A stretch of 64,000 nucleotides of DNA from Rothia mucilaginosa (GTDB lineage Bacteria > Actinomycetota > Actinomycetes > Actinomycetales > Micrococcaceae), in NCBI RefSeq assembly GCF_019334805.1, contig NZ_CP079822.1:2108001-2172000 (forward strand), in the 5' to 3' direction. The stretch's first letter is position 1, and every line of letters begins with the position of its first letter. The translations under genes were made by a program, and so were the position numbers. The notes beneath the pieces were generated by a model. It did not search any database and was not told the origin of the DNA. It saw only the letters and a list, made by a program, of their open reading frames with translations. Of the stretch, positions 10,576 to 31,086 are shown one piece after another.

Positions 10576-12411
10576 ATGTCGAAGACTACCCGTCGCGTTT
10601 ACAAGATCGCAGCTGCGGCAGCTTTTACCGCTGGTTCTGTAGCAGCAATCCCGGCAACCTTCGCGGCAGAAGCACCCGCCGATCAGCAGCAGCAGGTTGT
10701 TGATCAGAAGGCATCTTCTCAGACTTCTTCCCTGCCCGGCGGCAACGCAACCGAGACTCCCAAGGCTGAGGCAACCGAAGCTCCTAAGGCTGAAGCTCCT
10801 AAGGCTGAGGCAACTGAAGCACCTAAGGCTGATGCTCCCAAGGCTGAGGCAACCGAAGCTCCTAAGGCTGAAGCACCTAAGGCTGAAGCACCTAAGGCTG
10901 AGGCAACCGAAGCACCTAAGGCTGAGGCAACCGAAGCACCTAAGGCTGAGGCAACCGAAGCACCTAAGGCTGAGGCAACCGAAGCACCTAAGGCTGAGGC
11001 AACCGAGTCTCCTAAGGCTGAAGCGCCGAAGACCGAGGCTCCTAAGGCAGAGACTCCTAAGGCTGAGACTCCTAAGGCTGAAACCCCCAAGGCTGAGACC
11101 CCCGCTCCCGAGGTGAAGCAGGCTAACCCCTTCGTCTCCATCGAGAACGCACGCTTCTCCGGTGATGCGCAGTTCAACACCGTGAGCGTTGTTGGTACCG
11201 GCTTCTACGGCGAGAAGGTCGGCCCCGGCGTCCAGGTCAGCATCTACGCGCTGGATGAGAACCAGCAGATTACCGGTGACGCCATTACCACCGTGTCCGT
11301 GTCTGCGGACCAGATTCAGGATGGCTCCTTCAAGACTTCCTTCACTGTCGAGGCAAGCAAGCTGCCCGCCGGCGCTTCCTACGCTCTGGTTGCTGTGAGC
11401 AACCCTCAGGCTGCTCAGGCTGACCAGAAGCTCGTGGCTCTCTCCTCCTTCAAGGTCACCGAGTCCACCTCTCCCGAGGCACCCAAGAACAAAGAGACCC
11501 CCGCTCCCGTGACCCCGGCACCGGAGACCCCCAAGGCTGACGAGACTCCCGCTCCCGTGACCCCGGCACCGGAGACCCCGAAGGCTGACGAGACCCCGGC
11601 ACCCGAGGCCCCCAAGGAAGAAACTCCTGCTCCGGAAGCACCTAAGACTGAGACCCCCAAGGCTGACGAGACCCCCGCTCCGGAGGCTCCCGCAGCACCC
11701 GAGAACGCAACCCTCACCACCGAGGACGCTTCCCTGAACCCGAACGATCAGTACAACGTCCTGACCTTCAACGGCTCCGGCTTCACCCACGAGTCCGTCG
11801 CTAACGGTGTGCAGATCGCTATCTTCCGCCTGGATGCAAACGGCAACATCACCGGCGACGCTCTGGCAACCCACGACGTACCCGCTTCTGAAATCGTGAA
11901 CGGCACCTTCCGCGTCAAGGTCAGCGTTCTTGCTGAACTGCTGCAGCCCGGTTACGCCTACGCAATGGTGGCAACCAGCGACCCCAACGGCCCGGTACAC
12001 CAGGTTGCAGTCACCACCGCCACCGTGAGCGATGCGAACAACCCCGCACCGACCCTGCCGGCAGCTACCGAGGACGAGAGCACCACCGTTCGCGATAACG
12101 GCGACGGCACCACCAGCGTCTTCACCGCTGAAATGCGCGAAGACGGTTCGGTTGTCGTAACCGAGACCCGCATGCCCTCTTCTCAGGCACCCAAGGCTAA
12201 GGTTGGTAACGCATCCGCTGCTACCTCCTCTAGCTCCAAGGGCCACACTGTAGGCGTCTCCGGCACCAAGGGCTCGGCTCAGGCTTCCTCCTCCTCGAAG
12301 CAGCAGCTGGCACACACCGGTGCTGAGGGTGTTGCAGGTATCGCAGGCGTTGGCGCCGCAGCTCTGATTGCTGGTGCCGCACTGATGCTCCTGCGCCGCC
12401 GCAGCCTCTAA
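10576..12411 (+). CDS. LAHTG-sorted surface protein with APKAEATE repeats
   Basis: 611 residues. Signal peptide 1–30 (SKTTRRVYKIAAAAAF, cleavage probably after TFA). A repeat stalk of roughly 120 residues built on the octad APKAEATE covers about 56–180. Two copies of the cluster's beta-rich domain follow (about 184–282 and 380–478, core GVQVSIYALDENQQITGDA and GVQIAIFRLDANGNITGDA), separated by a PAPETPKADET-repeat linker. The sorting signal LAHTG at 578 is followed by a hydrophobic stretch and RRRSL. LAxTG is the class E sortase motif of actinobacteria, so covalent wall attachment is expected. Adhesion is plausible but not shown by sequence. Confidence 0.9.
   Translation: MSKTTRRVYKIAAAAAFTAGSVAAIPATFAAEAPADQQQQVVDQKASSQTSSLPGGNATETPKAEATEAPKAEAPKAEATEAPKADAPKAEATEAPKAEAPKAEAPKAEATEAPKAEATEAPKAEATEAPKAEATEAPKAEATESPKAEAPKTEAPKAETPKAETPKAETPKAETPAPEVKQANPFVSIENARFSGDAQFNTVSVVGTGFYGEKVGPGVQVSIYALDENQQITGDAITTVSVSADQIQDGSFKTSFTVEASKLPAGASYALVAVSNPQAAQADQKLVALSSFKVTESTSPEAPKNKETPAPVTPAPETPKADETPAPVTPAPETPKADETPAPEAPKEETPAPEAPKTETPKADETPAPEAPAAPENATLTTEDASLNPNDQYNVLTFNGSGFTHESVANGVQIAIFRLDANGNITGDALATHDVPASEIVNGTFRVKVSVLAELLQPGYAYAMVATSDPNGPVHQVAVTTATVSDANNPAPTLPAATEDESTTVRDNGDGTTSVFTAEMREDGSVVVTETRMPSSQAPKAKVGNASAATSSSSKGHTVGVSGTKGSAQASSSSKQQLAHTGAEGVAGIAGVGAAALIAGAALMLLRRRSL
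10750..11105 (+). repeat. in-gene tandem repeats encoding APKAEATE
   Basis: Codes for the stalk of the preceding surface protein. Between about 10890 and 11010 several 24-base units (gctgaggcaaccgaagcacc plus taag) are identical or nearly so, which favours slippage and length change in frame (24 is a multiple of three). Confidence 0.9.
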
Positions 12412-12473
12412 TAGCTCAGCCTCTATAGGCTAGGCTCTGAATATCTGATACTCGCCGTAAGGTGAGTGATTCA

Positions 12474-12514
12474 AGTGCCGTCAATACTCTGAAAAGGGTA
12501 TTGGCGGCACTTTT
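12474..12514 (+). terminator. terminator after first surface gene
   Basis: Arms agtgccgtcaatac / gtattggcggcact followed by tttt, 62 bases past the stop. Confidence 0.85.
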
Positions 12515-13164
12515 GCGTGCTAGCAGTTTTGTGTTGAGCTGTTTTGAAATGGAGGGGGGTGGCAAAGCGTGTGCGGCAAGCTGGGGGAGAGGTGCGGGTG
12601 TTCTCTTTCGTGGTGGAGGTGCGGGGTGGAAGCGCGGGGCGGTGTAACGGAATGATTTTGCTGGGTTATTTGGCGCGCAATTATTGGTACGCATGCTTGT
12701 AATCAATGCGCATGTAAAAGTGGTGTGACCTGCGATTTTTTCACTTAGAAGAAATAAATTAAATGCATGAATGTGCAGAATATTTTTATCTCAAATCCAT
12801 TAAAACTGCATATGCATGCAATAAAACCTTGAGTTTCAAGGGAGAGTTGAAAAATTTTGCCTAGTCCATGCAATTTGAGTGCTCTTGATGATGTTATAGA
12901 GAGTAAAAAATATGCTGTGTGGGTTATTGCACAGGAAAATAGTTGGGACGTAAAGCGTCTTTACAGCAATAACAAGAAAAGTATTGTTAGTGTGGAATTA
13001 CCGATAAATAGAGCGATTCCCTTCGCGGTAACTTCCACCATTACATGAACGTTATGACTAGTCCGTACGTTATAGCGGTCAATCCCGAAGAGACACCCGT
13101 CCAGCTTCGATCCGTGGCACCCTCCGGAGGGTATCGTTCACACTCACAGAAGAAGGTGTGTTTC
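12515..13164. other. long AT-rich upstream region of the second surface gene
   Basis: About 650 bases. From 12650 to 13040 the composition is much more AT-rich than the genes. It holds several atgcat-type palindromes (12771, 12811) and a segment ttgagtttcaagggagagttgaaaaa (split around 12828–12855) that resembles the upstream element of genes at 10576 and 19898. A 63-codon open frame at 12857–13048 has no ribosome site and an atypical composition, and is not called. Confidence 0.45.
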
Positions 13165-15177
13165 ATGCCCGAACCCGCTCACTCAAAAACCCGAGCAACA
13201 GCCGCTATTGCTGCTTCCGTCCTGTCCGCCACCGGTGTTGGTGCTGCGCACGCAGATGTGCAGGTGCAGAATACCGGCGGAATGGCTTCACCGACTGCGG
13301 TGGAACTCGACAATCCTCCCTCCGCTGTAAATGCAACCCCCATCGAAAACGTTGCTACCCAGAACTCCCCGCAGGTGTACGTCGAGCAGGGTGTTGTCAT
13401 TAACCCGGCGCGTTCCCAGAGCATTACCGTCACCGGTGAAGGCTTCACCGGCGGTGCCGTTGAACGTTACGGTGTGGCGGTGTACGTGAGCGAATACCGC
13501 CAGTACCCCCTCTACGCACTGGGTCGCGGCTCCGCAGTGACGATGACCCTCGTGCCCGAACTCGATGTGGACGGTGGCCGCTTCAGCACCCAGTTGACCC
13601 TGCCCGCAGGTACCCTCGACCCCAACCAGCAGTACGTTGTCGCAACTGCCGTGGTTGACCCTGCCAAGGGCTACGCGACGGAGGATCCCTCCTACAACTC
13701 CTCCGCACCGCTGGAGCTGCTGCCCGCAAATACTCAGGATGAGCCGCTCAATGCTCAGATTCTTTCGGGGCAGCTGGAGATCCCGCAGGATAAGAACCTT
13801 GTCGTCTACAAGGTCACCGGTCTGGGTGAGGCGCAGGCCTTTGAAGTGATGACCTACGCCTACGCCCTGGATAGCCAGGGTAACCGCATCCTGCTCGCTG
13901 CCTCTCCCGCGCGTGCCGACGTTGTAAACGGCACCCTCCTGGACGGCATTGAGGTGCCCGGATCCAGGTTGGAAGAAGTGCAGGCTGTTCACGAAGACCT
14001 GCGCTATGTGCTGAGCGTTGAGGTTGCACCCTCTGCCGCTAATGGTTACACCGCCCAGGAAGTTGAGGTTCCCTTCATGAATGGTTGGAATGTACAGCAC
14101 GGCTCCGCTCCGGTTGCCACCGCCGAGCGCGCAATGGCGGAGCAGGCACAGTTCGAGAAGAAGCAGTTCGAAGAGGAGGCGCAGCCCGAGCAGGTCGCCC
14201 AGGCTACCCCGAGTGCGCAGTCTGAGCAGGCTACCTCGAATGCTCAGTCCGCTCAGGCAGTTGCCGCGAGCCCCGTCGAGCAGTTCGACCACGTACTGCC
14301 CGAGAACGACCCGCGCCGCCACTACAGCCTGCCGCGCAACACCGTTTTTGACCGCGTCCACGACACCACCGAAGAACAGACCAACAACACCGCTAACCCC
14401 GTGATGACCGCCCGCCTGCACGTAGAAGAAACCGTAGTTCCCGAAAACGATTCCGCAAAGACCCTGACCCTGCGTGGAGAGGGCTTCACCGGCGTCAGCT
14501 CGGTGCACCTGATGGTTAGCGCTATCGATGAATACGGAGTGGCTACCGGCGGCGTGATTGCGTCGGCTGATGTCTCTGAGATTGACGACTCCGGTGCTTT
14601 CACCGCACAGGTGCAGATTCCCGGCTCGGAGCTCAAGCCCGGCACCACCTACCGTGTGAGTGCTGTGGCGGAGGATGAGCAGGGTACTGTGCGCATGGTC
14701 AATGGTGGCTTTACCGTCGAGCGCGATAGCGTGGATAGCCTGCCCACTACCCCTGAGCAGGATGCGCCCACTGTCGAGGCTCCCGTAGCCGACACTCCCG
14801 CTGTCGAGACTCCCGCGGTCGATGCTTCGGTGCCTACTGAGCCTGCGGCTGATCAGGCTTCTGTTACCGAGCAGAAGGCGGGGGAGAGCGGTGCTGAGCA
14901 GAAGAATGAGGCTCCGGTTGCTACCCAGAACGCCCCTGCTCAGAACGCTTCTGCACAGAAGGGTGATGCCCAGAAGAGCGATGCTCAGAAGGTTGAGGCG
15001 CAGGCATCTGGTGGTCAAAAGGTTGCCGCTGCTACCCAGCCGAAGCGCGAGCAGCTGGCGGCTACCGGCGCCTCCAATATGCTGGTCATTAGCGCAGCTG
15101 GATCGCTGTCGCTGCTTGCTGGTATGCGTTTGAGCCGTCGTCGCCGTAGTGAGATGCGGCTCAGTTCTCGCCGCTAA
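13165..15177 (+). CDS. LAATG-sorted surface protein with three repeat domains
   Basis: 670 residues from the ATG at 13165, chosen because agaaggtg precedes it and a clean signal peptide follows (TRATAAIAASVLSATGVGAAHA, cleavage after AHA). An in-frame upstream start at 13045 would add 40 unlikely residues. Three copies of the cluster domain can be traced (about 71–169, 200–292, 414–515); the first and third have the clear GEGFTG strand and the LP/VPGSxLxxGTxYRVSA end. A Gln/Ala-rich linker lies between copies two and three. A Pro/Thr/Glu then AQKxxAQ-rich stalk leads to LAATG, a hydrophobic segment and RRRR. Probably wall-anchored by class E sortase. Confidence 0.88.
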   Translation: MPEPAHSKTRATAAIAASVLSATGVGAAHADVQVQNTGGMASPTAVELDNPPSAVNATPIENVATQNSPQVYVEQGVVINPARSQSITVTGEGFTGGAVERYGVAVYVSEYRQYPLYALGRGSAVTMTLVPELDVDGGRFSTQLTLPAGTLDPNQQYVVATAVVDPAKGYATEDPSYNSSAPLELLPANTQDEPLNAQILSGQLEIPQDKNLVVYKVTGLGEAQAFEVMTYAYALDSQGNRILLAASPARADVVNGTLLDGIEVPGSRLEEVQAVHEDLRYVLSVEVAPSAANGYTAQEVEVPFMNGWNVQHGSAPVATAERAMAEQAQFEKKQFEEEAQPEQVAQATPSAQSEQATSNAQSAQAVAASPVEQFDHVLPENDPRRHYSLPRNTVFDRVHDTTEEQTNNTANPVMTARLHVEETVVPENDSAKTLTLRGEGFTGVSSVHLMVSAIDEYGVATGGVIASADVSEIDDSGAFTAQVQIPGSELKPGTTYRVSAVAEDEQGTVRMVNGGFTVERDSVDSLPTTPEQDAPTVEAPVADTPAVETPAVDASVPTEPAADQASVTEQKAGESGAEQKNEAPVATQNAPAQNASAQKGDAQKSDAQKVEAQASGGQKVAAATQPKREQLAATGASNMLVISAAGSLSLLAGMRLSRRRRSEMRLSSRR

Positions 15178-15217
15178 AACGGGGCAATTATTGCCCCACT
15201 AGGCAAAACGTGCACAT

Positions 15218-15275
15218 AGATGTAGGGACGTCCGAAATGCAAGATTCGGGCGTCCCTGCATCTTTAACTTTTTCT
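15218..15275 (+). terminator. terminator after second surface gene
   Basis: Arms agatgtagggacgtccgaa / ttcgggcgtccctgcatct followed by ttaacttttt. A second small hairpin ggggcaa-tta-ttgcccc lies just before it at 15181. Confidence 0.82.
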
Positions 15276-15474
15276 AAGGTTATACCTATAATTTAGAGTG
15301 CTGTTATAGACGGTACTATCACTCTTTATCACCTCGTTCACCCGGGGTGAGGAGTCGCTGTGAAGCGCCTCCGGTCACCGATATGAGAGAACCGTTATTC
15401 TGTGCCTACTTCCGACCTTTGGGCGCAGGAGTCACACGACGATTCATCACACTCACTCACGAAAATAGGTGACC

Positions 15475-17280
15475 ATGTTTTCCACGCAGCGAACTGCTCG
15501 CGGCGCGGCGCTAGTAGCGTCCGCAACCCTCGGTTTGGGGGGTGCTCTCGCGCCTGCAACTCTTGCTCCCGCAACTTTCGCGCCTGTTGCCTACGCTCAG
15601 ACTCAGCAGCCTGAAAAGCCTGAACTTCCGCTCGCCGTTGCCACTGATGTGGTTCAGCACAGTATCTCCTTGGTTTTACTGGCTCAGACTGGCGACTACA
15701 CTCTTCTGCAAATCGGCGGTGTAAATTCCCTGGACCAGGTGAAGGTTCGCCTGTCCGCCATCTCCGTTGAAGATGGCGTTGTGGCGACCATGACCGTACC
15801 CGCAGCCCAGATGACTGCCTCAAAGAATGAAGAAGGCAATATTGAGCTGAGCATCCACCAGCGCCTCAACGTTGAGCAGCCGTACATGGTTGAGGTGCAG
15901 AACCTGAGCACCAAGGATGCTATTTCGGTTGAGTTCATGCCTGAACAGGGCGCGACCGTTGACGAGATTCTGGCGAGCCGCCAGAACATTTTCTTCCCTG
16001 ACACCCCAGGCGTTCCCCGTGCTAACCGCGTGGAGGCGAATCCCACCCCCGAGGTGTCCGCAAGCCCGAGCGCATCCCCGAGCGCCGCGAAGGATAGCCC
16101 GCGCCCGACGGTCGCCCCGGCACCTTCTGTGGCACCGTCCGCATCGCAGAAAGTTTCGGCTCGTCCTTCTGCGAGTGCATCTGCTAGCGCCTCGGTGAGT
16201 GTGTCCGCGAGTGAGTCTGCTTCGGCGAGTTCTTCTACCGATGATGCGGCGCCCGCTGAGGTGACCGAGGATCGTCTGCTGGTGCACTCCCGCTCCGATC
16301 GGGCTCCCGCGGAGACCCGTGAGGCGACCCTGGAAATTTCCACCGCAGAGCTGCGCGGATCGGATGAGCTGCAGCCGATTAGCGTGCGCGCTAGGAACGT
16401 TGCGGAGAGTGGCCTGGGCTATGACGTGATGGTCTTTGAAATGCCTGCTGACGGCGGTGCCGTGGGTTCGCCGCTGGCAACCACGCATGTGAGCCCTCAG
16501 CAGGTGACTGATGCTTCTTTCTCTGCTGATTTGAAGGTTCCCGGTACCTCTTTGAATGCGGGTAAGCGCTACCGTGTGGTTGTGGTGGGTGGTAACTCCA
16601 CTGAGGAGCTGCAGCTCATGGCGACCAGTGCTTTTGGTGTGAGCGTGATTCAGCGTGCGGTTCCTGTTGACCCGGCTCCGAAGCCTACGAATACTGTTGT
16701 TCACCCGCAGGTCCCGATGATTTCTGATGCGAACCAGCGTATGAGCCCTTCGGCCCCTTCAGGTCGCGTGGGCTCTTCAGATACCTCTGCGGACGCTCAG
16801 GGTTTGGTGATTGATTCTGTTGCTAAGATTCCCTCGGTGGATAGCGCTCTGGGCTATATTGTGCAGGCGCAGCAGTCGGCGCGTGCGATTACCGCGCAGG
16901 CTCGTAGTTCTGTGGCTGAGACTGCGGTGGTTCCTTCGACGATGGTGATGTCTGGTTATGCAGTGATGTTGCCGGGGCGTACCGTGGTGAACCTGTTGGG
17001 TTACCAGTCTACTGAGGGGGAGACGGTGACTGTTGCTTCGCCTCAGGAGAATGTGGGTGCTGCAGGTTCGGGTAGTTTCTATACGCGTAGCTCGAAGTCG
17101 CGCGGTGATTCTGCCGGTTCGAAGCTGGAGGCGAGTGCTCAGGATAATGGCCCGCTGCCGGAGGGTACCTTGCCGCTGAGTATTGCTCTGCTGGGTTCGG
17201 TTGCCTTTGTGGGTACTGCTGTTGCGGTTAACGTGTATCGTCGCCGCCTTGAGGGTGCTGAGGAGCTGGGTGCCGAGTAG
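15475..17280 (+). CDS. exported surface protein, membrane-tail type, no sorting motif
   Basis: 601 residues from the ATG at 15475; a GTG two codons earlier is possible. Signal peptide with cleavage after AYA (about residue 42). An N-terminal beta region follows (about 55–150), then a long Ser/Ala/Pro low-complexity linker. One clear copy of the cluster domain spans about 284–379 (GYDVMVFEMPADGGAVGSP, then VPGTSLNAGKRYRVVV). A long C-terminal region precedes a membrane segment and YRRR tail. Before that segment the sequence is LPEGTLP, which is not a canonical LPxTG or LAxTG signal. It may be a degenerate signal or a plain membrane anchor. Confidence 0.82.
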   Translation: MFSTQRTARGAALVASATLGLGGALAPATLAPATFAPVAYAQTQQPEKPELPLAVATDVVQHSISLVLLAQTGDYTLLQIGGVNSLDQVKVRLSAISVEDGVVATMTVPAAQMTASKNEEGNIELSIHQRLNVEQPYMVEVQNLSTKDAISVEFMPEQGATVDEILASRQNIFFPDTPGVPRANRVEANPTPEVSASPSASPSAAKDSPRPTVAPAPSVAPSASQKVSARPSASASASASVSVSASESASASSSTDDAAPAEVTEDRLLVHSRSDRAPAETREATLEISTAELRGSDELQPISVRARNVAESGLGYDVMVFEMPADGGAVGSPLATTHVSPQQVTDASFSADLKVPGTSLNAGKRYRVVVVGGNSTEELQLMATSAFGVSVIQRAVPVDPAPKPTNTVVHPQVPMISDANQRMSPSAPSGRVGSSDTSADAQGLVIDSVAKIPSVDSALGYIVQAQQSARAITAQARSSVAETAVVPSTMVMSGYAVMLPGRTVVNLLGYQSTEGETVTVASPQENVGAAGSGSFYTRSSKSRGDSAGSKLEASAQDNGPLPEGTLPLSIALLGSVAFVGTAVAVNVYRRRLEGAEELGAE

Positions 17281-17720
17281 CTCAGCTATTTGTTGCTTAG
17301 CGCTGTGAGGCGTGGCTCTCTGTAGGGGAGTTTGTTGAGTGGGAGGCGTTCTGCTGGATGCGTGCCGTGTGGGTGCGTGTTTGGTGGGGCGCCTTCTGTG
17401 TGCCCGGATGTTTGACTCTATTGCGCGGTGGTCTGGTGCGCTTTGGGGTGGTGTAAAAATCTCTTTTTAGTGCACTCTGGGGAATATATTTTGACATTCG
17501 AATTTTGCGTTATTTATATCTCAGTAAAGTAATTAATTCCCTTTTATTTCGGCAATTACTGCGACATAAGGTTTTAGCACGTGAATGCAATGCAACATTA
17601 AGTGCAATATCCGTGTTAGGCTAGGGTGTAACCGACGTACTGGTGCGCAAATACTTGGATAGAAACACCGGCTTGTGGTGAGCCTTCCCTAGTCCACGCT
17701 TTGCGCCTACATCGATCGAA
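17281..17720. other. intergenic region before third membrane-tail gene's neighbour
   Basis: About 440 bases. The first 180 are GC-rich without a clear terminator. From 17450 it is AT-rich with aattaattccc and ATAAGGTT at 17566, the heptamer taaggtt shared by several genes of the cluster. No gene seen. Confidence 0.45.
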
Positions 17721-19559
17721 ATGGCGCACATGACTATCACTCGACTTCCGAAACGCATTCATGCTCTTTCGCTTGCAGCCGCTTTAGGTGCAAGCGCTTT
17801 TGTGCTTCCTGGCGCCTCCGCAGTAGAGGCTGAAGCAATTAACGTGAATGATTGCCTGGCGGCTCTGGTTAATAGCGAATTTAATTCAAGCTGCCCCTAC
17901 GAAGACCTCGAAATTGAGGTCGATACCATTGAGATTCAGATTCAGTCCATCAAGGACGGTCAGGCAACCATTAAGCTCGTGCCCCTCTATGAGGGCGGCT
18001 ACGTGGGCGATGCCTCTAGGGTGTACCTGGTAATGCAGTACTACGACGCCACTGGCACGTTGCTTGGGTCTGACACTTACGAGCCCTCCGCAATGCAGGT
18101 TGAGCGTGCGAATGACGGCTCGATGCTCGTCACCTTTGAGATGCCGCAGATGCCTCAGGAGGGCTACTACTCCATGAGCGTCATGGACCTGACGACCTCT
18201 GACGAGGGCTATGGCGAATTCATGATTTCTGAGGGTTCCCTCGTTCCGCACGCTATCCCGATTGAGGATGACCCTGACGAGGTGATGGTGGACAAGAAGG
18301 AAAACGCCCACCAGGTGCCGACCATTGACGAGCTGAAGACGATGGAAAAGCTCCGTGAAGAGGAGCAGAAGAACCAGCAGGCTGCAGATCAGAAGGGTAG
18401 CAGGGATAAGGTTAAGACTGAGGCGCCTTCCGAGTCTGCTGAAAACCCGAACTCCGAAACCCACACGCAGAAGCTGGAGCAGATCCCCGGCGGATCGACC
18501 TCTTCTCGCGATATTCAGACCCTGAGCGCTACGGAACTGAAGGTTGCGTATGCTGAGGTTCGCTCCGATAAGGAAACCAAGCCGGTGACTATCAGTGCAG
18601 CGCGTCTGGCTGCGAATGCGGCTGGCTACGACCTGATTGTGGTTGAAACCGACATGAGTGGCAACCATAAGGGTGATGCGCTGTCCATTACGCACATCAG
18701 CTCTGATCGCATTGTGAATGGCGCGTTCAAAGAAGAGATTGGCATGCCCGGCTCTCTGCTGAAGACCGGCTCGGTGTACACCGCCTACCTGGTGCGTGCG
18801 GACGATACTGAGTATGCGGAAGAAGTTGTCTCGGTGCGATTCAAGGTCAGTGGCGAGGCGACCGGCAACTCAACCTCCTTGACGAAAGATGAGTCGCCTC
18901 GCCAGGATGCAAGCGCATCGCTCACGCCCAGCGCCAATGCGGCCGAGGCGACCGGTGCCACTCAGGGTAGCCCCTCCGCTGCTACTAGCGCCGTCTCGAC
19001 TCGTTCTGATGATACCCAGTCGGGCTCGGGTCAGTCTGCCGCGAGCGCACCCCGTTCCACTCTGGATGCGGTGAGCGCCATGTCCAAGGCAAAGGAAGCG
19101 AAGGCTGAGCGTCAGCGTCAGGCTCTGCAGGCTTTGGCTCAGGCACGTACGGTAGCTCCGCGTTCGGCTTTTGAGCCGACTCGCACCAATCAGATTTCGG
19201 CGTACAGTTCGGGTTCTGACCCGGCATCTATCGCTGCTGCCGCGAACTCGGCTGCTTTGACGGATGAAGAAAAGGCGGCGTCGGCAGCTTCTGGTAATGG
19301 CAATAAGGGTTTCACCCCCGTGGTTCATTCGGAATCTAATAATCGTTCCGCTACGGTGAACTCGAATACCACCCAGGTGCACTCCAACGCGAATGCTGAT
19401 CGTCAGGATGGCGTGAAGGCTGTAGCTTCGGCGGCGTCTCCCGCTAGTGAAGAGGTTGCGCAGCACGGTGTAGCTTTCTGGGCTCTTGGAGGCGCCGGTT
19501 TGGCGCTGGTGGTTGGTGCCGCGTGGATGGCTCACCGCAGGGGAGTCCTCGGCGGCTAA
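17721..19559 (+). CDS. exported surface protein, membrane-tail type
   Basis: 612 residues. Signal peptide ending near VLPGASA. An N-terminal beta region (about 70–160, VYLVMQYYDATGTLLGSDTY) looks like a diverged copy of the cluster domain. A charged linker rich in Lys/Glu/Gln follows, then a clear copy at about 267–377 (GYDLIVVETDMSGNHKGDA, then MPGSLLKTGSVYTAYLV). A Ser/Ala/Thr-rich stalk ends in VAQHG, a hydrophobic segment and HRRG. VAQHG sits where LAxTG would be, so this looks like a decayed sorting signal. An ATG three codons inside is an alternative start; neither has a strong ribosome site. Confidence 0.82.
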   Translation: MAHMTITRLPKRIHALSLAAALGASAFVLPGASAVEAEAINVNDCLAALVNSEFNSSCPYEDLEIEVDTIEIQIQSIKDGQATIKLVPLYEGGYVGDASRVYLVMQYYDATGTLLGSDTYEPSAMQVERANDGSMLVTFEMPQMPQEGYYSMSVMDLTTSDEGYGEFMISEGSLVPHAIPIEDDPDEVMVDKKENAHQVPTIDELKTMEKLREEEQKNQQAADQKGSRDKVKTEAPSESAENPNSETHTQKLEQIPGGSTSSRDIQTLSATELKVAYAEVRSDKETKPVTISAARLAANAAGYDLIVVETDMSGNHKGDALSITHISSDRIVNGAFKEEIGMPGSLLKTGSVYTAYLVRADDTEYAEEVVSVRFKVSGEATGNSTSLTKDESPRQDASASLTPSANAAEATGATQGSPSAATSAVSTRSDDTQSGSGQSAASAPRSTLDAVSAMSKAKEAKAERQRQALQALAQARTVAPRSAFEPTRTNQISAYSSGSDPASIAAAANSAALTDEEKAASAASGNGNKGFTPVVHSESNNRSATVNSNTTQVHSNANADRQDGVKAVASAASPASEEVAQHGVAFWALGGAGLALVVGAAWMAHRRGVLGG

Positions 19560-19620
19560 CGCCCCTAATCCGTGCTTTTTGGCGGCATCGCATAGTATGT
19601 TCGTTGTTTCATGAGGAATG

Positions 19621-19660
19621 CTCGCCCCCGCTATCTGTTGGCGCAGATCGCGGGGGCGAG
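19621..19660 (+). terminator. hairpin after 17721–19559 gene
   Basis: Arms ctcgcccccgc / gcgggggcgag, extended by atctg / cagat inside. No T-run follows, so its role as terminator is uncertain. Confidence 0.5.
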
Positions 19661-19897
19661 TCGTGCGTTCAGGGTGTTCAAAAAAACTCTACCCTCGCGT
19701 GAATAAACCTTAAGGTTCGTGATAGGGTTGAAATAACCGATAAATAGATGCGAGCTATTGTCAGGTCTTCTTCACCTGAAATATGAAGCGGAGTATGGTA
19801 CGACAAATCCGGGTGTATGGCGCTCCCGAAAGGCTCCCTGAGGCGCATGAAGAATGGGCAGTAGCACGCACAATTCCATCATGAAAAGACGCATTGC
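19661..19897. promoter_or_regulatory. upstream region with shared TAAGGTT element and a six-codon leader frame
   Basis: Contains ttaaggttcgtgatagggtt gaaata at 19710–19735, strongly similar to the element before the gene at 10576. A six-codon frame ATG AAA AGA CGC ATT GCA TGA (19881–19901) overlaps the start codon of the next gene in the ATGA arrangement typical of translational coupling. No ribosome site is obvious for either. Confidence 0.3.
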
Positions 19898-21505
19898 ATG
19901 AGTATTTATTCAGCGAAGCACCGTATTGTCACCGCAACCGTTTTGGTTGCGGGGCTTCAGTGCGGGCTTGTTGTACCCTCTGTCGCAACGGAAGCACCCG
20001 TCACGACCCACTCTGCCGTGCAAAAAACCGCCACCCTGACCGCAACCCCGAACCAGGCTGAAGACAATCAGCAGGTGCAGGGCGCAGCCTCCACCATCAC
20101 CATGAAGGCGCAGCTCAAGGATGGTGGCTACCTTCTACGTTGGACGGGTTTCCCTGAAGATCTGGAGGCCTCCAGCGTTCTGGTTGATGTGAACTTCTAC
20201 ACCCCTTCCGGTGAGTATGGTGGCTCCGTTCTGGAAAGCCCGACCCTAGCTGAGGGGACCAAGGAGGGGGAGTTTCGCCTCCTGATGAGCCCGGCGACGG
20301 ACTCTAACGTCGTGTACGTGATTGTTCTGGAGGATACCGCGCACGGTGTCTCCTACGAATTCTTTGTCACCGAGCGGGGGAACCGCCTGGTTGAGGCCGC
20401 TGACCCGCGCAACGGTAAGGCAAAGCCTACTGAACCGCCGGTCGACATTGAGCGTGAAGAGGCAGAAACCGCTGAGGCAAGTGCCACCCCAAGTCCCGAG
20501 GCGGTAAACCTGCCTTCGCCGACCGCTACGTCGTCCACCGATACGAACGGTGACACGGTTCGCCGTACCGTAGACAACCTGCAGAACAAGGATTCTGGCC
20601 AGTACGTTATCTCAGAAGACAATAGCGTGTATGACCCGATGAATCAGCGCAAGGGCAAGGCGCACATGTCTATTCAGGATTCGCAGGGTGACTCTCAGGA
20701 TGATACGAAGCCTGTCACGGTCCGTGCCACGAACTTCCCCCAGAATGACAAGGGTTACGACCTGATCGTCATGGAAATCGACACCAATGGCAACACTGTT
20801 GGTGATGCGCTCGCCATTGTGCACGTTGGCCCGGAATCTATTTCTGCGGGTGCGTTCGAGGCTGTGATTGGTGTGCCCGGTGCGTCCCTACAGATCGGTA
20901 AGACGTACCTGGTGGCGGCTTTTGACGCTGCCGGTGACGGTAACCTTCAGCTCAACACGGTGCGTTTTACGGTGACTCAGGCGTCCTCTGAGGGCGGTGG
21001 ATCATCGTCCAATTCTTCGTCTGTGAACGAGGAGAAGCCGGTTACTGTACCTTCCGCGTCTGCCTCTGAGACTGCGGATGCACCCGCTGCGGGTTCTAAG
21101 TCTAAGACCCGCGGTATTCAGGCTGATACCGCCATGGCTCCGGGTACTAATGACGCCACGATTTCTGTTCCGCGCGCTGCCGGTAGCCCTGCCACCGCGT
21201 CTTCCTCGGCGCTGGGGTACCGCACCGGGGAGGCGCAGCCTGTTGAGGTGGCGACCCCCGAGTCTAATTTGCCCTCGGGTACCGATTCGGCGGCTCAGTC
21301 TCGCCGTGCCGCGATTCTGAACGGTTCTTCCTCTCAGGTTCGTACTGATCCCGGATCGCCGAATGGTGTGAAGGCAACGGAGGCGCAGATTACCCGCAAC
21401 ATGGATAAGAGTTCGCCGCTTCTGCCGATTTTGGTGACCCTGGGTGGCGGTCTGATTCTGGGTGCTTTGGGTATGTCACGTATGCATGCTTCGAAGAAGG
21501 ATTAG
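19898..21505 (+). CDS. exported surface protein, membrane-tail type
   Basis: 535 residues. Signal peptide with hydrophobic core VTATVLVAGLQCGLVVPSVA. An N-terminal beta region (about 65–160) resembles that of the two preceding genes. A Glu/Pro/Ser linker follows, then a clear copy of the cluster domain at about 268–362 (GYDLIVMEIDTNGNTVGDALAI, then VPGASLQIGKTYLVAAF). After a Ser/Ala-rich stalk it ends in a single hydrophobic segment and HASKKD without any LAxTG-like motif. Membrane anchoring with the domain outside is the simplest reading. Closest relatives are its two upstream neighbours, suggesting tandem duplication. Confidence 0.82.
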   Translation: MSIYSAKHRIVTATVLVAGLQCGLVVPSVATEAPVTTHSAVQKTATLTATPNQAEDNQQVQGAASTITMKAQLKDGGYLLRWTGFPEDLEASSVLVDVNFYTPSGEYGGSVLESPTLAEGTKEGEFRLLMSPATDSNVVYVIVLEDTAHGVSYEFFVTERGNRLVEAADPRNGKAKPTEPPVDIEREEAETAEASATPSPEAVNLPSPTATSSTDTNGDTVRRTVDNLQNKDSGQYVISEDNSVYDPMNQRKGKAHMSIQDSQGDSQDDTKPVTVRATNFPQNDKGYDLIVMEIDTNGNTVGDALAIVHVGPESISAGAFEAVIGVPGASLQIGKTYLVAAFDAAGDGNLQLNTVRFTVTQASSEGGGSSSNSSSVNEEKPVTVPSASASETADAPAAGSKSKTRGIQADTAMAPGTNDATISVPRAAGSPATASSSALGYRTGEAQPVEVATPESNLPSGTDSAAQSRRAAILNGSSSQVRTDPGSPNGVKATEAQITRNMDKSSPLLPILVTLGGGLILGALGMSRMHASKKD

Positions 21506-21655
21506 TCGCGTAGGGGGTGGGGGAGTAGCGGCCCCTGTTGCCTGTTGAAGTGTGCTGGTACGGGGTGGGTTTATTGCCCTGTCAGTGTGCTGTGGGGTGG
21601 TTTGTCACAAAACGGTTTCTTGGAACCTGATGTTGAGAAATACTCACGCTATCGA

Positions 21656-21674
21656 TATAGTAAGCCTGTCCTAA
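21656..21674 (-). promoter_or_regulatory. DtxR/IdeR-like iron box before the HtaA-type gene
   Basis: Read on the minus strand it is TTAGGACAGGCTTACTATA, matching 15 of 19 positions of TWAGGTWAGSCTWACCTWA. It ends 28 bases before the start codon, where a repressor would block transcription. A 7-base inverted repeat ctatcga / tcgatag surrounds its edges. Confidence 0.5.
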
Positions 21675-21701
21675 CAATGTCGATAGTATGGATACACACC
21701 A

Positions 21702-24515
21702 ATGAAGATTTTCACATCTGGCACCCGCCTCTCCAAGGGAGCCTGCGCCCTCGCCGTTGCTGGCGCTGTTGCCCTGCCCCTGGCACCCGTTCTCGCCGAG
21801 AACATTAATATCGCTGCCCAGAACGTTGCCGCACAGAATGTCGCTGCAGGCGACCAGGCAACCGCCGGCGCATCCTTCGGTTGGGGCGTGCGCGCCTCCT
21901 TCCTGTCCTACAACGGTATGCCCCGCGAAATGACCGACGGCGCAGCCTGGGACGCAACCGCAAAGCAGTTCACCTTCACCCCGACCTCCACCACCGTCTC
22001 TGAAGACGGCAAGCAGGTCACCCTGCAGGCAGCCGGCCGCCTCTGGTTCACCGGCCACTGCGCTGAAGGTCAGGACCCCGAAACCGGTTGCGCCCTGAAC
22101 CTCACCTTCTCCAATCCCCGCGTGGAACTGAACCTCGCTGACGGCACCGGCTCTCTCTACATGACCGTGCGCACCAAGAACTACGCTTCCGGCAAGTTCG
22201 AGGGCCCCATGGAAGTCAAGATGGCGACCCTGAGCACCGGCACCGCCAAGCAGAGCGAGAAGGACGGCGTAGTTAGCATCAGCGGCATCTCCGCGAACCT
22301 GACCGCCGACGGTAACCACGCCTTCTCTGACTTCTACAACGAAGGCGCCAGCCTCGACCCGCTGAGCATCTCCTACAACGGTAGCGCAGCTAACACCCCC
22401 AAGAGCGCCTACAGCGTCGCCGAGTCTTACAACACCGGCGCGGGCGTGAACCAGCCCCAGAACACCGCACGTCTGGGCCAGAACCACATCGTGCACGTGG
22501 CACCCCCGAGCTTCAGCGGTGACACCACCTACACCGTGCTGACCAGCTCCAACCTGAAGATGACCGACACCGGCGTCCTGAAGGCAATCAAGGGCGTTTT
22601 CGCGGTAGACGCTGACGGCAACCGCATGCTCGTCATCGGCAGCGAGACCAACAAGCCCGAGCTGTACACCGTGACCGCCGAGGGTAAGCTCGTCTCCTCC
22701 GGTACCTACTCCGACGTAGACCTCGGCGCCAACACCGTCAAGGCAATCGGCTACAACCCCGCCAACAACACCTGGGGCATCCTCAGTATTGACGGCCAGG
22801 GCGGCGGCAAGCTGACCATCATTGACGCATCCGGCAAGGCAACCTCGCAGGCTCTGCCGAAGCCCGACTCTATCGACCCGCAGGTTGTGAACGCCTACTC
22901 GCTCGACGAGTACTACGGTGACTCGTTCTCCAATAACACCGTGACCCTCGCGCCGCTGCCCGACGGCAGCTTCGTGTACGCGCCGTCGACCTCCATCTAC
23001 GATGCGGCCGGCGAAAAGGTGGTTCAGAAGGGTCACCTGCTGCACATGAGCAGCAACGGCGTGTCCCTGGTTCCGAACTCTTCACCCGCAGGCTACGACA
23101 CCGCCCTGCCCTCGACCCTGGTCAGCCCCAAGGGCTACATTTACCGTTGGAACAACTGGTACGGCGGTAAGGTGCAGATCCTCAAGTACGAGAACGGCAC
23201 TTTCAGCGTGGTCCGCGAGTCCGCAACTCTTGAGGGCTTCGAGAAGACCGAGGTTGCCACCATGTTCCTGACCCGCGCGGGCAACGTGGTTGTGGTGGAT
23301 GCTTCCGGCTCCCGCCTGGTGTTCATGGATGACACCCTGAACAAGGTGAACGAGGTCGTGCTCTCCTCGATGCGCAAGACCGACAAGAGCGGCGGCTACA
23401 ACGCCCTCGAGCTGCCCAACGGCGATATTATCTACCCGACCAGCTTCGAGAACCCGAACACCTACGAGGATCAGCTGTGGCTGAACCGCCTGGCAGCAAA
23501 CTCGGCACCGGAACAGACCCCGGCACCCGAGCCCACTAAGTCTGCTGAGCCGACCGTTGCTCCCACCGTAGCTCCGACCGTGGCACCGACTGCTGAGCCG
23601 ACTGCCGCGCCTTCTGCTGAGCCTACCGTCACTGCGGAGCCGACTGTTGCTCCGACCGAGGCACCGACCGCAGAGCCCACTAAGTCTGCTGAGCCGACTG
23701 TCGCGCCCACCGTGGCACCGACTGCAGAGCCTAGCAAGACTGCAGAACCGACCGTGGCACCGACCGAGGTTCCCTCTGCAACTGCTGAGCCGACCGTCGA
23801 GCCCTCGGCAACTGCAGAGCCTAGCGTGACCGCAGAACCTTCTGCAGAGCCGACTATGGAGCCTTCCGCAACCGCTGAGCCCACCAAGACTGCAGAACCC
23901 ACCGCAGTGCCTTCGGAGGAGCCCACCTCGCCGTCTCTGCCGACCGCATCCGTGGCACCTTCTGTAGCACCTTCTGCAACTCCGAGCGCATCGGTGAGCG
24001 CTTCCCCGACCGCGGTTCCGAGCATTCCCGCCGTGACCCCCTCGGTGAGCGCGTCTGCATCGGCGTCCGCTAGCGCGTCTGCTTCTTCGAGCGCTTCTGC
24101 GAGTGCATCGAGCTCCGCAAGCAGCTCCAGTAGCGCTTCGGTGACCGCATCGGCTAGCGAGTCTGCATCTGCGAGTGCATCCGCGTCCGCGAGTGCTTCC
24201 GCGAGCGAGTCTGCATCCGCGAGCGCTTCTGCTTCTGAGAGCAGCACCGCCGACCAGAACGCAGCCGGCCACAAGGGCGGCTCCAACGGCGGTTCTGACG
24301 CAGGTTCCGGCACCTCCGACAACTTGGGTGTGAGCGGCTCCAATGGCGGCTCCTCTAACGGTGGTTCTTCCGCAGGTGGTTCCTCGACCTCCGGTAGCTC
24401 CTCCTCGAAGCTGGCACAGACCGGCGCATCCGGCGCTATGTTCGCCGCAGCAGCTGGTGCTATCACCCTGGCTGCGGGTACCGCACTGGTCGTGGCTCGC
24501 CGCCGCAAGAGCTAA
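21702..24515 (+). CDS. HtaA-domain haem-binding surface protein, LAQTG-sorted
   Basis: 937 residues. Signal peptide (cleavage after VLA, about 32). One HtaA domain at about 58–220: FGWGVRASFLSY opens it and LWFTGHC follows; Tyr70 and His119 correspond to the conserved Tyr and His that bind haem in corynebacterial HtaA. Residues about 250–605 look like a beta-propeller (repeated strands such as VFAVDADGNRMLVIG and GNVVVVDASGSRLVF). A Thr/Pro/Glu (AEPTVAPT) stalk and a Ser/Ala stalk follow, then LAQTG with hydrophobic segment and RRRKS. Known HtaA proteins capture haem from host haemoproteins. No hmuTUV transporter lies nearby. An iron box precedes it. Confidence 0.88.
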   Translation: MKIFTSGTRLSKGACALAVAGAVALPLAPVLAENINIAAQNVAAQNVAAGDQATAGASFGWGVRASFLSYNGMPREMTDGAAWDATAKQFTFTPTSTTVSEDGKQVTLQAAGRLWFTGHCAEGQDPETGCALNLTFSNPRVELNLADGTGSLYMTVRTKNYASGKFEGPMEVKMATLSTGTAKQSEKDGVVSISGISANLTADGNHAFSDFYNEGASLDPLSISYNGSAANTPKSAYSVAESYNTGAGVNQPQNTARLGQNHIVHVAPPSFSGDTTYTVLTSSNLKMTDTGVLKAIKGVFAVDADGNRMLVIGSETNKPELYTVTAEGKLVSSGTYSDVDLGANTVKAIGYNPANNTWGILSIDGQGGGKLTIIDASGKATSQALPKPDSIDPQVVNAYSLDEYYGDSFSNNTVTLAPLPDGSFVYAPSTSIYDAAGEKVVQKGHLLHMSSNGVSLVPNSSPAGYDTALPSTLVSPKGYIYRWNNWYGGKVQILKYENGTFSVVRESATLEGFEKTEVATMFLTRAGNVVVVDASGSRLVFMDDTLNKVNEVVLSSMRKTDKSGGYNALELPNGDIIYPTSFENPNTYEDQLWLNRLAANSAPEQTPAPEPTKSAEPTVAPTVAPTVAPTAEPTAAPSAEPTVTAEPTVAPTEAPTAEPTKSAEPTVAPTVAPTAEPSKTAEPTVAPTEVPSATAEPTVEPSATAEPSVTAEPSAEPTMEPSATAEPTKTAEPTAVPSEEPTSPSLPTASVAPSVAPSATPSASVSASPTAVPSIPAVTPSVSASASASASASASSSASASASSSASSSSSASVTASASESASASASASASASASESASASASASESSTADQNAAGHKGGSNGGSDAGSGTSDNLGVSGSNGGSSNGGSSAGGSSTSGSSSSKLAQTGASGAMFAAAAGAITLAAGTALVVARRRKS

Positions 24516-25768: not shown

Positions 25769-25934
25769 GGGGGTTTCCTTTCGAAGTGGTGGTCTGCGCC
25801 GCGCGGGGTGCAGGACACAATAGCGGTTCGTGTGTTCTTTGTTTGGAGTTTACCTTATGAAACCCACATTTGGAAATGGGGCACGCGGAGGGTGCTAAAG
25901 GTTATTTTTACCCTAAAAGATGATCTCAAATTTT

Positions 25935-25953
25935 ATAGATTAGCCTTACCTAA
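25935..25953 (+). promoter_or_regulatory. DtxR/IdeR-like iron box 1
   Basis: ATAGATTAGCCTTACCTAA matches 17 of 19 positions of TWAGGTWAGSCTWACCTWA. It lies 167 bases upstream of the nirD start and 361 upstream of nirB, so which gene it controls is open. Confidence 0.6.
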
Positions 25954-25954
25954 A

Positions 25955-25973
25955 TTAGGTTTAGATAAGGTAA
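25955..25973 (+). promoter_or_regulatory. DtxR/IdeR-like iron box 2
   Basis: TTAGGTTTAGATAAGGTAA matches 14 of 19 consensus positions and begins 20 bases after box 1, about two helical turns, an arrangement that would allow two dimers on one face. Confidence 0.4.
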
Positions 25974-26313
25974 GAATACCCTATTCCAGCCCGGTATTCC
26001 GCGGATTTTTTGGAAAATTTTCCCAAAAAATACGGATTTTCGATACTTCGACCCCGCGCTAGAGTGTACGATAAAAGTCGTAGTTTAAAACGCCTTTTGA
26101 CTGCCTGAAGAAAACAACATAATCCCACACAAAAATGTTTCGTAATTTTCAGATGCATTCTAAAGAAGCGGGCGCTCCAACTACTCGGTACGCATCAGGT
26201 ACGAGCCCAACGGTACGGAAACTAGGAGTTCCAATACCGGGCACGATCCAGTCGCACACTGAGGGTAGATAAGTGCCATGAACTACCTGCATTACAACTA
26301 GGAAGGAAAATCC

Positions 26314-30132: not shown

Positions 30133-31086
30133 CTAGATCTTGAAGTCGTTGCTGCTGCCGGAACTGCCGGAGCTACCGGAGCCACTGGACTTGCTTGCCG
30201 AAGCCGATGAGGAGGGACCCTCAAAGACCTGGCGGAATCGGTCGCTGTACTCCGACACGAAGTACTCGCGGCTAGTCACGCGCCACTTGCCCTCGGCGTA
30301 CACCACGTAAATCACGACATCCAGGGTGCTTGCCTTCTGAGGCTCACCCGTGCCCTTCTGGTAGATGGTGTATTCCTTGACAACATCCCGGCAGGGGAAC
30401 GCCACAACAGCCAAATCGGAAGAGGCAAGAGCCTTCGCATCGAGATCGTCACGGATGCTCAGCTTGCTCTCGTAGTCCTTAGTCCAACCGCCCGCAGCGT
30501 AGAGCTTAGCGATAGCCTTCAGGTTGTTGACCAGACCGCTGTCAGCGCCGTGGACCAGACCCTTGAGGTACTGCAGGTCGCCGTTGTACATCGCGGCAAT
30601 ATACGCGCTCTGGTAAGCAGCCAGGGTCTTGTAGGCGCCCTCGAGGGAGACGGTACGCTGAGCCACAGTATCAATGACCGGGATCGGAACGTTCTTCGCG
30701 GGGGAGGTGTCGGTCGGCTCAACATAGTGCGCAATGGCGGGCTTGTACTCGTACTTGACGTCGCCAATGTACTTCTTATAGTCCTTCAAGAACTCGTCAG
30801 ACGGAATAATCTTCGCGCTGTTACGGCTTGACGAGGACGAAGACGAAGCGGATGCCGAAGCCGAGGCAGACTCAGAAGGCGAAGCCGACGCAGACGCCGA
30901 GGGAGAGGCGCTCGGGGAGCCGGAGAAAGTGTCGCCGCTACCGGTGGGGCGAATATCCTTGTTGAAGGCGCATCCTGCTAGAGTCAAAGCACCGGCGGTC
31001 AGACCGCCAAAAAGAACGGTGCGGCGGGTCAATCCGTTTCGGTCGTTAGCAGAGAAGCTGGTGTGTGCACTCGGCCGGAAGGACAT
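30133..31086 (-). CDS. Tat-type lipoprotein, DUF6318-like
   Basis: 317 residues. The N-terminus has TRRTVLFGG, a twin-arginine motif, and the lipobox LAGC, so it is probably exported folded and lipidated. A Ser/Ala/Pro linker follows the Cys, then a soluble domain containing YKPAIAHYVEP and SPAKNVPIPV, similar to what I recall of actinobacterial DUF6318 lipoproteins; that link is tentative. It ends in a Ser/Gly-rich tail. The start follows aggagatacc. The next upstream gene (31421–32320) is a paralogue with its own leader and terminator. Confidence 0.82.
   Translation of the reverse strand: MSFRPSAHTSFSANDRNGLTRRTVLFGGLTAGALTLAGCAFNKDIRPTGSGDTFSGSPSASPSASASASPSESASASASASSSSSSSRNSAKIIPSDEFLKDYKKYIGDVKYEYKPAIAHYVEPTDTSPAKNVPIPVIDTVAQRTVSLEGAYKTLAAYQSAYIAAMYNGDLQYLKGLVHGADSGLVNNLKAIAKLYAAGGWTKDYESKLSIRDDLDAKALASSDLAVVAFPCRDVVKEYTIYQKGTGEPQKASTLDVVIYVVYAEGKWRVTSREYFVSEYSDRFRQVFEGPSSSASASKSSGSGSSGSSGSSNDFKI

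Follow-up and report, generated by a model that had tools for sequence, protein, structure and literature searches.

What six neighbouring surface-protein genes of Rothia mucilaginosa are for, and what the predicted haem-binding protein encoded by the last of them says about the other five, is the question raised by the locus described here. The genes, designated A to F, lie in a 64-kb window, the whole stretch of DNA analysed (2,108,001–2,172,000 of a single-contig genome of 2.28 Mb). They were originally predicted to form a tandem array, which was borne out: they are six consecutive genes of the + strand, spaced by 196–633 bp. One flank holds a short-chain dehydrogenase gene (SDR) and the gene of valyl-tRNA synthetase (ValS, the latter named by eye), and the other has CbiX-like and nirB-like genes. 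The array is real, and the family of the domain shared by A–E is a frequent partner of HtaA domains. The reading favoured here, with somewhat less than even confidence, is that A–E represent a lineage-specific expansion of an immunoglobulin (Ig)-like surface domain allied to the actinobacterial HtaA haem-capture proteins, and that they serve haem uptake.

A–E have in common a domain of ca. 110 residues, whose eight clear copies align and are distributed over A, B, C, D, and E as predicted (2, 3, 1, 1, and 1, respectively). Each copy was left out in turn of the hidden Markov model (HMM) and scored against 1000 shuffles of that copy, which gave 77.7 bits for E, 73.3 for C, 71.7 and 65.1 for A, 66.2 for D, 61.1 for B3, and 37.6 for B1, the best shuffles for these seven reaching 9.2–14.7 bits. 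The possibility, raised together with the prediction, that the copies do not align to one another was not borne out for these seven of the eight, and B2, the second of the three in B, exceeds its best shuffle only marginally (8.6 vs. 7.4 bits). Blastp among the six window proteins also joins A–E (best 4.8e-18, D with E), and the proposed history of tandem duplication followed by divergence, with unlike stalks, holds. Hydrophobic stretches are present in the six proteins at the N terminus (signal-peptide-like, by hydropathy and by eye) and at the C terminus.

The AlphaFold2 model of copy A2 is a seven-stranded Ig-like sandwich (pLDDT 86.6, pTM 0.78). Residues that are invariant or nearly so comprise a Tyr, a Gly, and, among the window copies, a Leu; one Tyr is present in all 51 copies of the Rothia alignment and starts a beta strand, where its role looks structural. 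Across the same copies no His, Met, or Cys is conserved (best columns 16, 14, and 0%, respectively), and none of the 50 matches listed in a VIA-align fold comparison is a haem protein by title. No copy of the 51 matches Pfam below E = 0.001 (best 0.01), and NCBIfam gives no coherent match, the only two rows below 0.001 being scattered ones, NTTRR-F1 (3/51 copies at E ≤ 1, best 3.9e-4) and 2-isopropylmalate synthase (1/51, 6e-4). The claim that the domain is not a named family is therefore upheld for Pfam and NCBIfam, and the search that could have placed it in a defined family was run in both with the same outcome. The domain of A–E is a single family with a predicted Ig-like fold and without a name in either database; it was called unrecognised correctly as regards the name, and less so as regards its relatives, which can be found, and its fold, which is Ig-like in the model.

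The relatives were sought by running the 51-copy profile against 295 genomes of the bacterial family, 17 of which match, four from Rothia and 13 others. In three of the 13 (G043, G071, and G102) Pfam-unnamed domains are situated inside haem loci, where G043 and G071 have HtaA in the frame of the domain and G102 has it in the next gene; the loci also comprise homologues of the HmuT, HmuU, HmuV, and haem-oxygenase-like genes of this genome, the reference genes having been named by eye. The remaining ten matches are weaker, and of three scanned two, L052 and L055, are of the GxPGS type and one, L062, is without a match in Pfam, the one library it was scanned with. Compared by hhalign with 42 non-Rothia copies, the 51-copy alignment gives 98.4% over 113 columns and the window copies alone 97.4% over 88 columns, while shuffled or reversed controls against the first 12 of those copies stay below 1%. 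The wider HtaA-linked family is likewise absent from Pfam (0/29 rows below 0.001).

The linkage to HtaA was quantified with a 12-row non-Rothia profile run against 395 genomes of the family and 396 of the order. Within the family it matches 13 genomes, five of Rothia and eight others, three of the eight being source genomes of the profile. All eight have HtaA, in the same frame in six and in the next gene in one, and in the eighth the frame is cut at the contig end and the HtaA gene lies ca. 1 kb away. In the order there are 39 matching genomes, G000, G013, and 37 others. HtaA is present somewhere in 33 of these 37 carriers: domain and HtaA share a reading frame in 29 and lie within 10 kb in two, which makes 31 of 37, and in six HtaA is not found on that contig. 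Whether the two share a frame was decided from their contig, strand, and spacing together with the length of the frame, using a single domain row for each genome except G455, for which two were used. In 19 of the 29 the HtaA match is below 1e-30. In L097, L098, and L099 homologues of hmuTUV come next, beside the domain. Outside Rothia, too, HtaA genes have as neighbours stand-alone proteins of the domain that end, by eye, in an LAXTG-like motif (L099 and L127). A further non-Rothia profile of 26 rows, chosen by us from the 42 copies and with 18 rows coming from HtaA frames, places seven of the eight window copies above all 1000 shuffles of each, B2 failing; the whole-protein E-values are 9.9e-15 for B, 1.6e-13 for A, 4.1e-7 for C, 9.4e-6 for E, and 0.023 for D. 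The original statement that the array is tied to haem by position only was an understatement, as a related domain is found in the HtaA frames of 29 of the 37 sampled carriers. In the window itself the copies are encoded beside HtaA, in genes separate from it.

F is the only gene of the cluster with an HtaA (CR) domain, no match to PF04213 being found in A–E. Its identification as an HtaA protein is confirmed (7.6e-39; 134.3 bits at a cut-off of 24, profile positions 2–164 of 164). The closest solved chain is 9o0k, and in the alignment with it the segments SFLSY (66–70), FTGH (116–119), and SDFY (209–212) show that F keeps the Ser-x-x-x-Tyr pattern, the helper His, and the propionate Tyr, the roles of the residues being taken from the account of the CR domain in the cited part of PMC12494546. 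A Cys pair of F lies in the loop matching the position of the disulphide that ChtA is said there to carry (PMC12494546). The HtaA domain is followed by a region of ca. 380 residues which by eye looks like a beta-propeller, and for which no sequence match was found in Pfam and no significant one in the PDB. Genes of the F type, with HtaA followed by such a region, are present in eight further Rothia genomes, in G006 with an SLH anchor, and in G001 the HtaA-propeller gene adjoins one coding for a propeller, three copies of the array domain, and SLH.

Sites resembling an iron box were scored with a 19-base consensus which we take to be that of DtxR/IdeR. A 15/19 site is located 46 bp 5' of F in all four genomes of the R. 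mucilaginosa group (equalled by 0–2 of 200 shuffles), the four not being independent, since F of G013 looks like a recent import (see below). Among F-type genes of other genomes, the box is 16/19 at -43 in G028 (0/200), 14/19 at -39 in G006 (13/200), and 14/19 at -283 in G001 (3/200), where the start used is probably placed too far 3'; for G012 and G022 the top box, 13/19, is within chance (30/200 and 20/200). A weight matrix also gives its top score at F, which is circular, the matrix having been built from F-type boxes. Iron regulation common to A–E and haem uptake was considered and abandoned, a clear box being present only at F. The main haem operon of the genome, at 935–941 kb, codes for a protein with three HtaA domains and an LASTG motif, followed by HmuT-, HmuU-, and HmuV-like genes.

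If A–E do serve haem uptake, each protein would hold one to three Ig domains off the cell on a flexible stalk; Rothia proteins with the domain bear sorting signals, hydrophobic tails, or SLH domains. The ligand of the Ig domains would be a protein of the host or of saliva, with a haemoprotein (haemoglobin, for instance, or its complex with haptoglobin) as the likeliest candidate, from which the HtaA domain of F would then take haem, to be imported by the three-HtaA protein and HmuTUV encoded at ~935–941 kb. Binding of haem by the Ig-like domain itself would not be expected. A more specific version, doubtful and based on analogy, would have the domain as an undescribed Ig-like receptor module of actinobacterial haem capture, with a role like that of the haemoglobin-interacting parts of Shr and IsdB, and the five-gene array of the R. 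mucilaginosa group as docking haemoproteins for its iron-regulated HtaA neighbour.

Our confidence in the role of A–E in haem uptake stays below even because of the regulation of A–E, the loss of WxAH, and the existence of another domain cluster, and several further observations weigh on the same side. Upstream of A, B, C, and E no convincing iron box was found (128–173 of 200 shuffles equal the best site), and the 14/19 box of D (8/200) is not kept in the G013 orthologue (155/200); the positive control is itself poor, the best site of the main HtaA operon being only 14/19. The WxAH motif, which follows the YxV strand in the HtaA-linked form of the domain (W in 72% and H likewise in 72% of 29 rows), is absent from all eight array copies. 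The second domain cluster, at ~244–262 kb, and a singleton at 1786 kb are far from both HtaA genes of the genome, and G006 has its gene A at a distance from its HtaA-propeller gene. The share of 29/37 refers to domain carriers only. In ten of these 29 the HtaA match is weak, though over the cut-off (1e-9 to 3e-5), and a single genus accounts for eight of the ten; HtaA is absent altogether from four of the 37 carriers. In five weaker-match genomes checked, no domain is HtaA-linked, the one genome that has HtaA carrying it on a different contig. Finally, the Rothia profile is also related to GxPGS-type Ig domains (hhalign 96.8%), the values for the HtaA-locus group and for the GxPGS-type group being alike, ~97%.

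The evolution of the array bears on what else A–E might be. Their domain is under purifying, not diversifying selection, that of A being the least constrained. In comparison with G014, the ratio of nonsynonymous to synonymous substitution rates (dN/dS) of the domain is 0.19 in A, 0.07 in B, 0.13 in C, 0.07 in D, and 0.05 in E, vs. 0.19, 0.36, 0.19, 0.17, and 0.25 for the rest of the respective proteins and 0.03–0.05 for ValS and SDR. In comparison with G013, the domain values are 0.34 in A, 0.19 in B, 0.13 in C, and 0.16 in E, that of D not being measurable, and those of the rest 0.19, 0.32, 0.36, 0.33, and 0.30 for A to E (two rows of mis-paired fragments, SirB in L041 and ValS in L042, were left out). 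Local alignments of this genome with G013 show 38–72% identity for the array proteins and 97–100% for F; D and E are more diverged at synonymous sites too (about 2.0, near saturation). The idea that such variability marks an adhesin exposed to immunity was rejected, as the flanking SDR and SirB are also diverged (dS 0.9 and 1.1, respectively) and the domain is under purifying selection. F of G013 has a dS of 0.12 vs. ~0.9–1.1 in the flanking genes, and for this reason looks like a recent import by recombination between lineages.

A–E could be adhesins for a ligand other than haem, e.g., salivary pellicle, mucin, or epithelial or bacterial partners, with the domain as a general Ig-like module taken from HtaA proteins or passed on to them. 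This explanation is somewhat less likely than the favoured one, since a relative of the domain sits in an HtaA frame in 29 of the 37 order carriers and the diversifying selection that might be expected in an adhesin was not seen, the measurable dN/dS of the domain being 0.05–0.34. Alternatively, the domain could be a spacer, a ligand-less Ig-like bead raising other parts off the wall. The Ig-like fold, the frame shared with HtaA domains, and the structural look of the conserved Tyr, Leu (window set), and Gly agree with that. A–E, however, have no other recognised domain to display, sorting signals aside, and domain-only stand-alone proteins recur next to HtaA. In four of the five genes, moreover, constraint is stronger on the domain than on the remainder when G014 is the reference, and equal in A, although with G013 as reference the domain of A is the less constrained part (0.34 vs. 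0.19). A spacer is therefore unlikely.

Direct binding of haem by the domain, which would then be another type of haemophore, would fit its genomic company and the Tyr found in 51/51 copies, but this Tyr begins a beta strand and looks structural, His, Met, and Cys are unconserved in the same copies, and the fold matches listed include no haem protein by title, so direct haem binding is most improbable. An expansion of an HtaA-allied surface domain that serves haem uptake by docking haemoproteins remains our preferred reading.

Among known systems, the HtaA/CR proteins (PF04213; HtaA and ChtA of C. diphtheriae) are the nearest: gene F is a member, and outside Rothia the relative of the array domain lies mostly in or near HtaA frames, whereas A–E are without a CR domain and their own domain is Ig-like. 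Adhesin repeats with intramolecular ester bonds (8dj2, 8f90, CPE0147) cross-link through a Thr-Gln pair. No such conserved pair is present in the array domain, the best Thr column among the first 50 reaching 57% and the best Gln column among the last 50 reaching 20% of the 51 copies. The GxPGS Ig-like domain (NF058592) resembles it in hhalign over 69 columns and in the hairpin pattern DxxGNxxGDP present in both, but the NCBIfam model matches none of the 51 copies. The neocarzinostatin/macromomycin fold (PF00960) differs in that no significant Pfam match was obtained, the best NCBIfam chromoprotein hit being 1/51 at 0.061. NEAT domains and the HID haemoglobin receptors of Shr are similar by analogy only, as surface-displayed domains of haem capture in the cited part of PMC8977872, and differ in that no Pfam row below 0.001 was obtained for the 51 copies, one of which touches PF07550 at E = 0.091. 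HtaA proteins are described, in the cited passages, through their CR domains (PMC12494546, PMC8977872). A second domain that recurs in the HtaA frame would mean that this widespread system of haem capture has a working part still to be explained, and the Rothia array offers it as stand-alone proteins, hence easy to test. In the literature collection searched no publication on HtaA in Rothia was found, and no link between an Ig-like domain and HtaA is evident from the titles and abstract openings of the papers listed. R. mucilaginosa, to whose group the array belongs, is reported in the cited part of PMC12979206 as the most abundant in the saliva of a 12,519-person cohort. The ABO-associated region of R. 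mucilaginosa described there includes a 3-isopropylmalate dehydrogenase gene (PMC12979206) and is probably not this locus: the sole match to that enzyme family in this genome is at 1,989,825, with no domain match within 120 kb of it.

The coordinates of the features are collected in the table. A strong terminator-like hairpin follows B, so A–F are probably separate transcription units, and a single operon is unlikely. The true start of B lies probably near residue 39–41, judging from orthologues.

Features of the A–F locus (positions in the 64-kb window)
Feature	Position	Strand	Remarks
Gene A	10576..12411	+	611 residues; signal-peptide-like N terminus, stalk of APKAE-type repeats, domain in two clear copies, sorting signal LAHTG
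Domain copy A1	11113..11466	+	leave-one-out 71.7 bits; non-Rothia profile 34.5 bits, best shuffle 11.0
Domain copy A2	11695..12036	+	recovered by leave-one-out and non-Rothia profile; used for AlphaFold2 model
Gene B	13045..15177	+	at most 710 residues; three domain copies, LAATG sorting signal
Domain copy B1	13354..13710	+	non-Rothia profile 37.0 bits, top of the eight; best shuffle 7.8
Domain copy B2	13732..14082	+	marginal; non-Rothia profile 1.7 bits, equalled by 57/1000 shuffles
Domain copy B3	14395..14727	+	recovered by leave-one-out and non-Rothia profile
Terminator-like hairpin	15218..15263	+	strong, intrinsic type, 19 pairs, 3' of B
Gene C	15469..17280	+	603 residues; one clear domain, C-terminal hydrophobic helix, positive tail, no LPXTG/LAXTG
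N-terminal region of C	15637..15951	+	hhalign 2%; 28/1000 shuffles equal non-Rothia profile score
Domain copy C1	16309..16647	+	recovered by leave-one-out and non-Rothia profile
Gene D	17721..19559	+	612 residues; single clear domain copy and hydrophobic helix; sorting motif absent
N-terminal region of D	17913..18236	+	hhalign 74%; L069 orthologue 1.2e-4; no score with non-Rothia profile
Domain copy D1	18516..18857	+	non-Rothia profile 15.0 bits, lowest of the seven recovered; best shuffle 9.6
Gene E	19898..21505	+	535 residues; single clear domain copy and hydrophobic helix; sorting motif absent
N-terminal region of E	20054..20377	+	beta-rich, low-confidence model; copy status unsupported
Domain copy E1	20645..20983	+	recovered by leave-one-out and non-Rothia profile; well-predicted beta strands in E ectodomain model
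Promoter-like site of F	21633..21661	+	TTGAGA-17-TATAGT; consensus match only
DtxR/IdeR-like iron box of F	21656..21674	+	overlaps -10 of F; 15/19; equalled by 0/200 shuffles
Gene F	21702..24515	+	937 residues; HtaA domain, ~380-residue region, PT/S-rich stalk, LAQTG sorting signal
HtaA/CR domain of F	21870..22373	+	axial Tyr conserved, as are the positions of the propionate Ser and Tyr; helper His, Cys pair
~380-residue region of F	22398..23540	+	in G001 also fused to three domain copies and SLH

Cell-wall sorting, which had been claimed for the array proteins, holds for A, B, and F, each with an LPXTG/LAXTG motif, a hydrophobic stretch, and a positive tail scoring above the TIGR01167 cut-off. 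It does not hold for C, D, and E, which have near the C terminus neither the motif nor a TIGR01167 match and end in a membrane helix. Apart from the sorting signals, no other recognised domain was found in A–E in the family scans. Diverged N-terminal copies of the domain had also been proposed in C, D, and E. Those in C and E have no support in sequence, the non-Rothia profile not scoring above shuffles in either (hhalign 0.3% for E), and for D the hhalign value and a single orthologue hint weakly at a copy to which the profile gives no score. A structural reading of the N-terminal region of E was dropped, the model confidence being too low to interpret.

Within Rothia the domain is found in seven of 35 genomes and HtaA in 19, among them all seven, which are related and so not independent. 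Two named records contain relatives of gene A, that of Rothia sp. RSM386 (95%) and that of strain 141_RMUC of Rothia mucilaginosa, the latter with 73% over the domain. In the R. dentocariosa-like G006, only gene A of the array was found at the syntenic site, and it is 95–97% like proteins that NCBI names R. dentocariosa. In G027 both A and F are retained, separated by no more than remnants of C and E, and in Rothia sp. RSM386 (L043:4795-5804) fragments of C and E occupy the place of B–E, the array having seemingly been lost in this lineage.

The second cluster (L038:12-18361, G000) codes for seven large proteins with the domain as detected by the wider profile; in the one scanned an SLH match takes the place of a sorting signal, the others being alike by eye. 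The protein of the 1786-kb singleton ends in LASTG. The cluster and the singleton are also picked up by the profile of the eight window copies. The start of L124:2560-4188 resembles the second-cluster proteins, and L124:6035-14443 (~270–278 kb of G000) comprises seven similar lipoprotein-like genes, most starting with ACASDIRPL (by eye). A 13-mer repeated upstream of B and E is no more frequent than expected by chance in the window (8/100 shuffles). The name 'enoyl-CoA hydratase' is given by NCBI to four of the 120 homologues of gene E listed, and nothing in E supports it. Downstream of the array, a cluster of DtxR/IdeR-like boxes lies 5' of the nirB-like gene (25897-25984), one of them with three mismatches in 19 (0/100 shuffles), and two adjacent minus-strand genes of the window (30133-31086 and 31421-32320) contain DUF6318.
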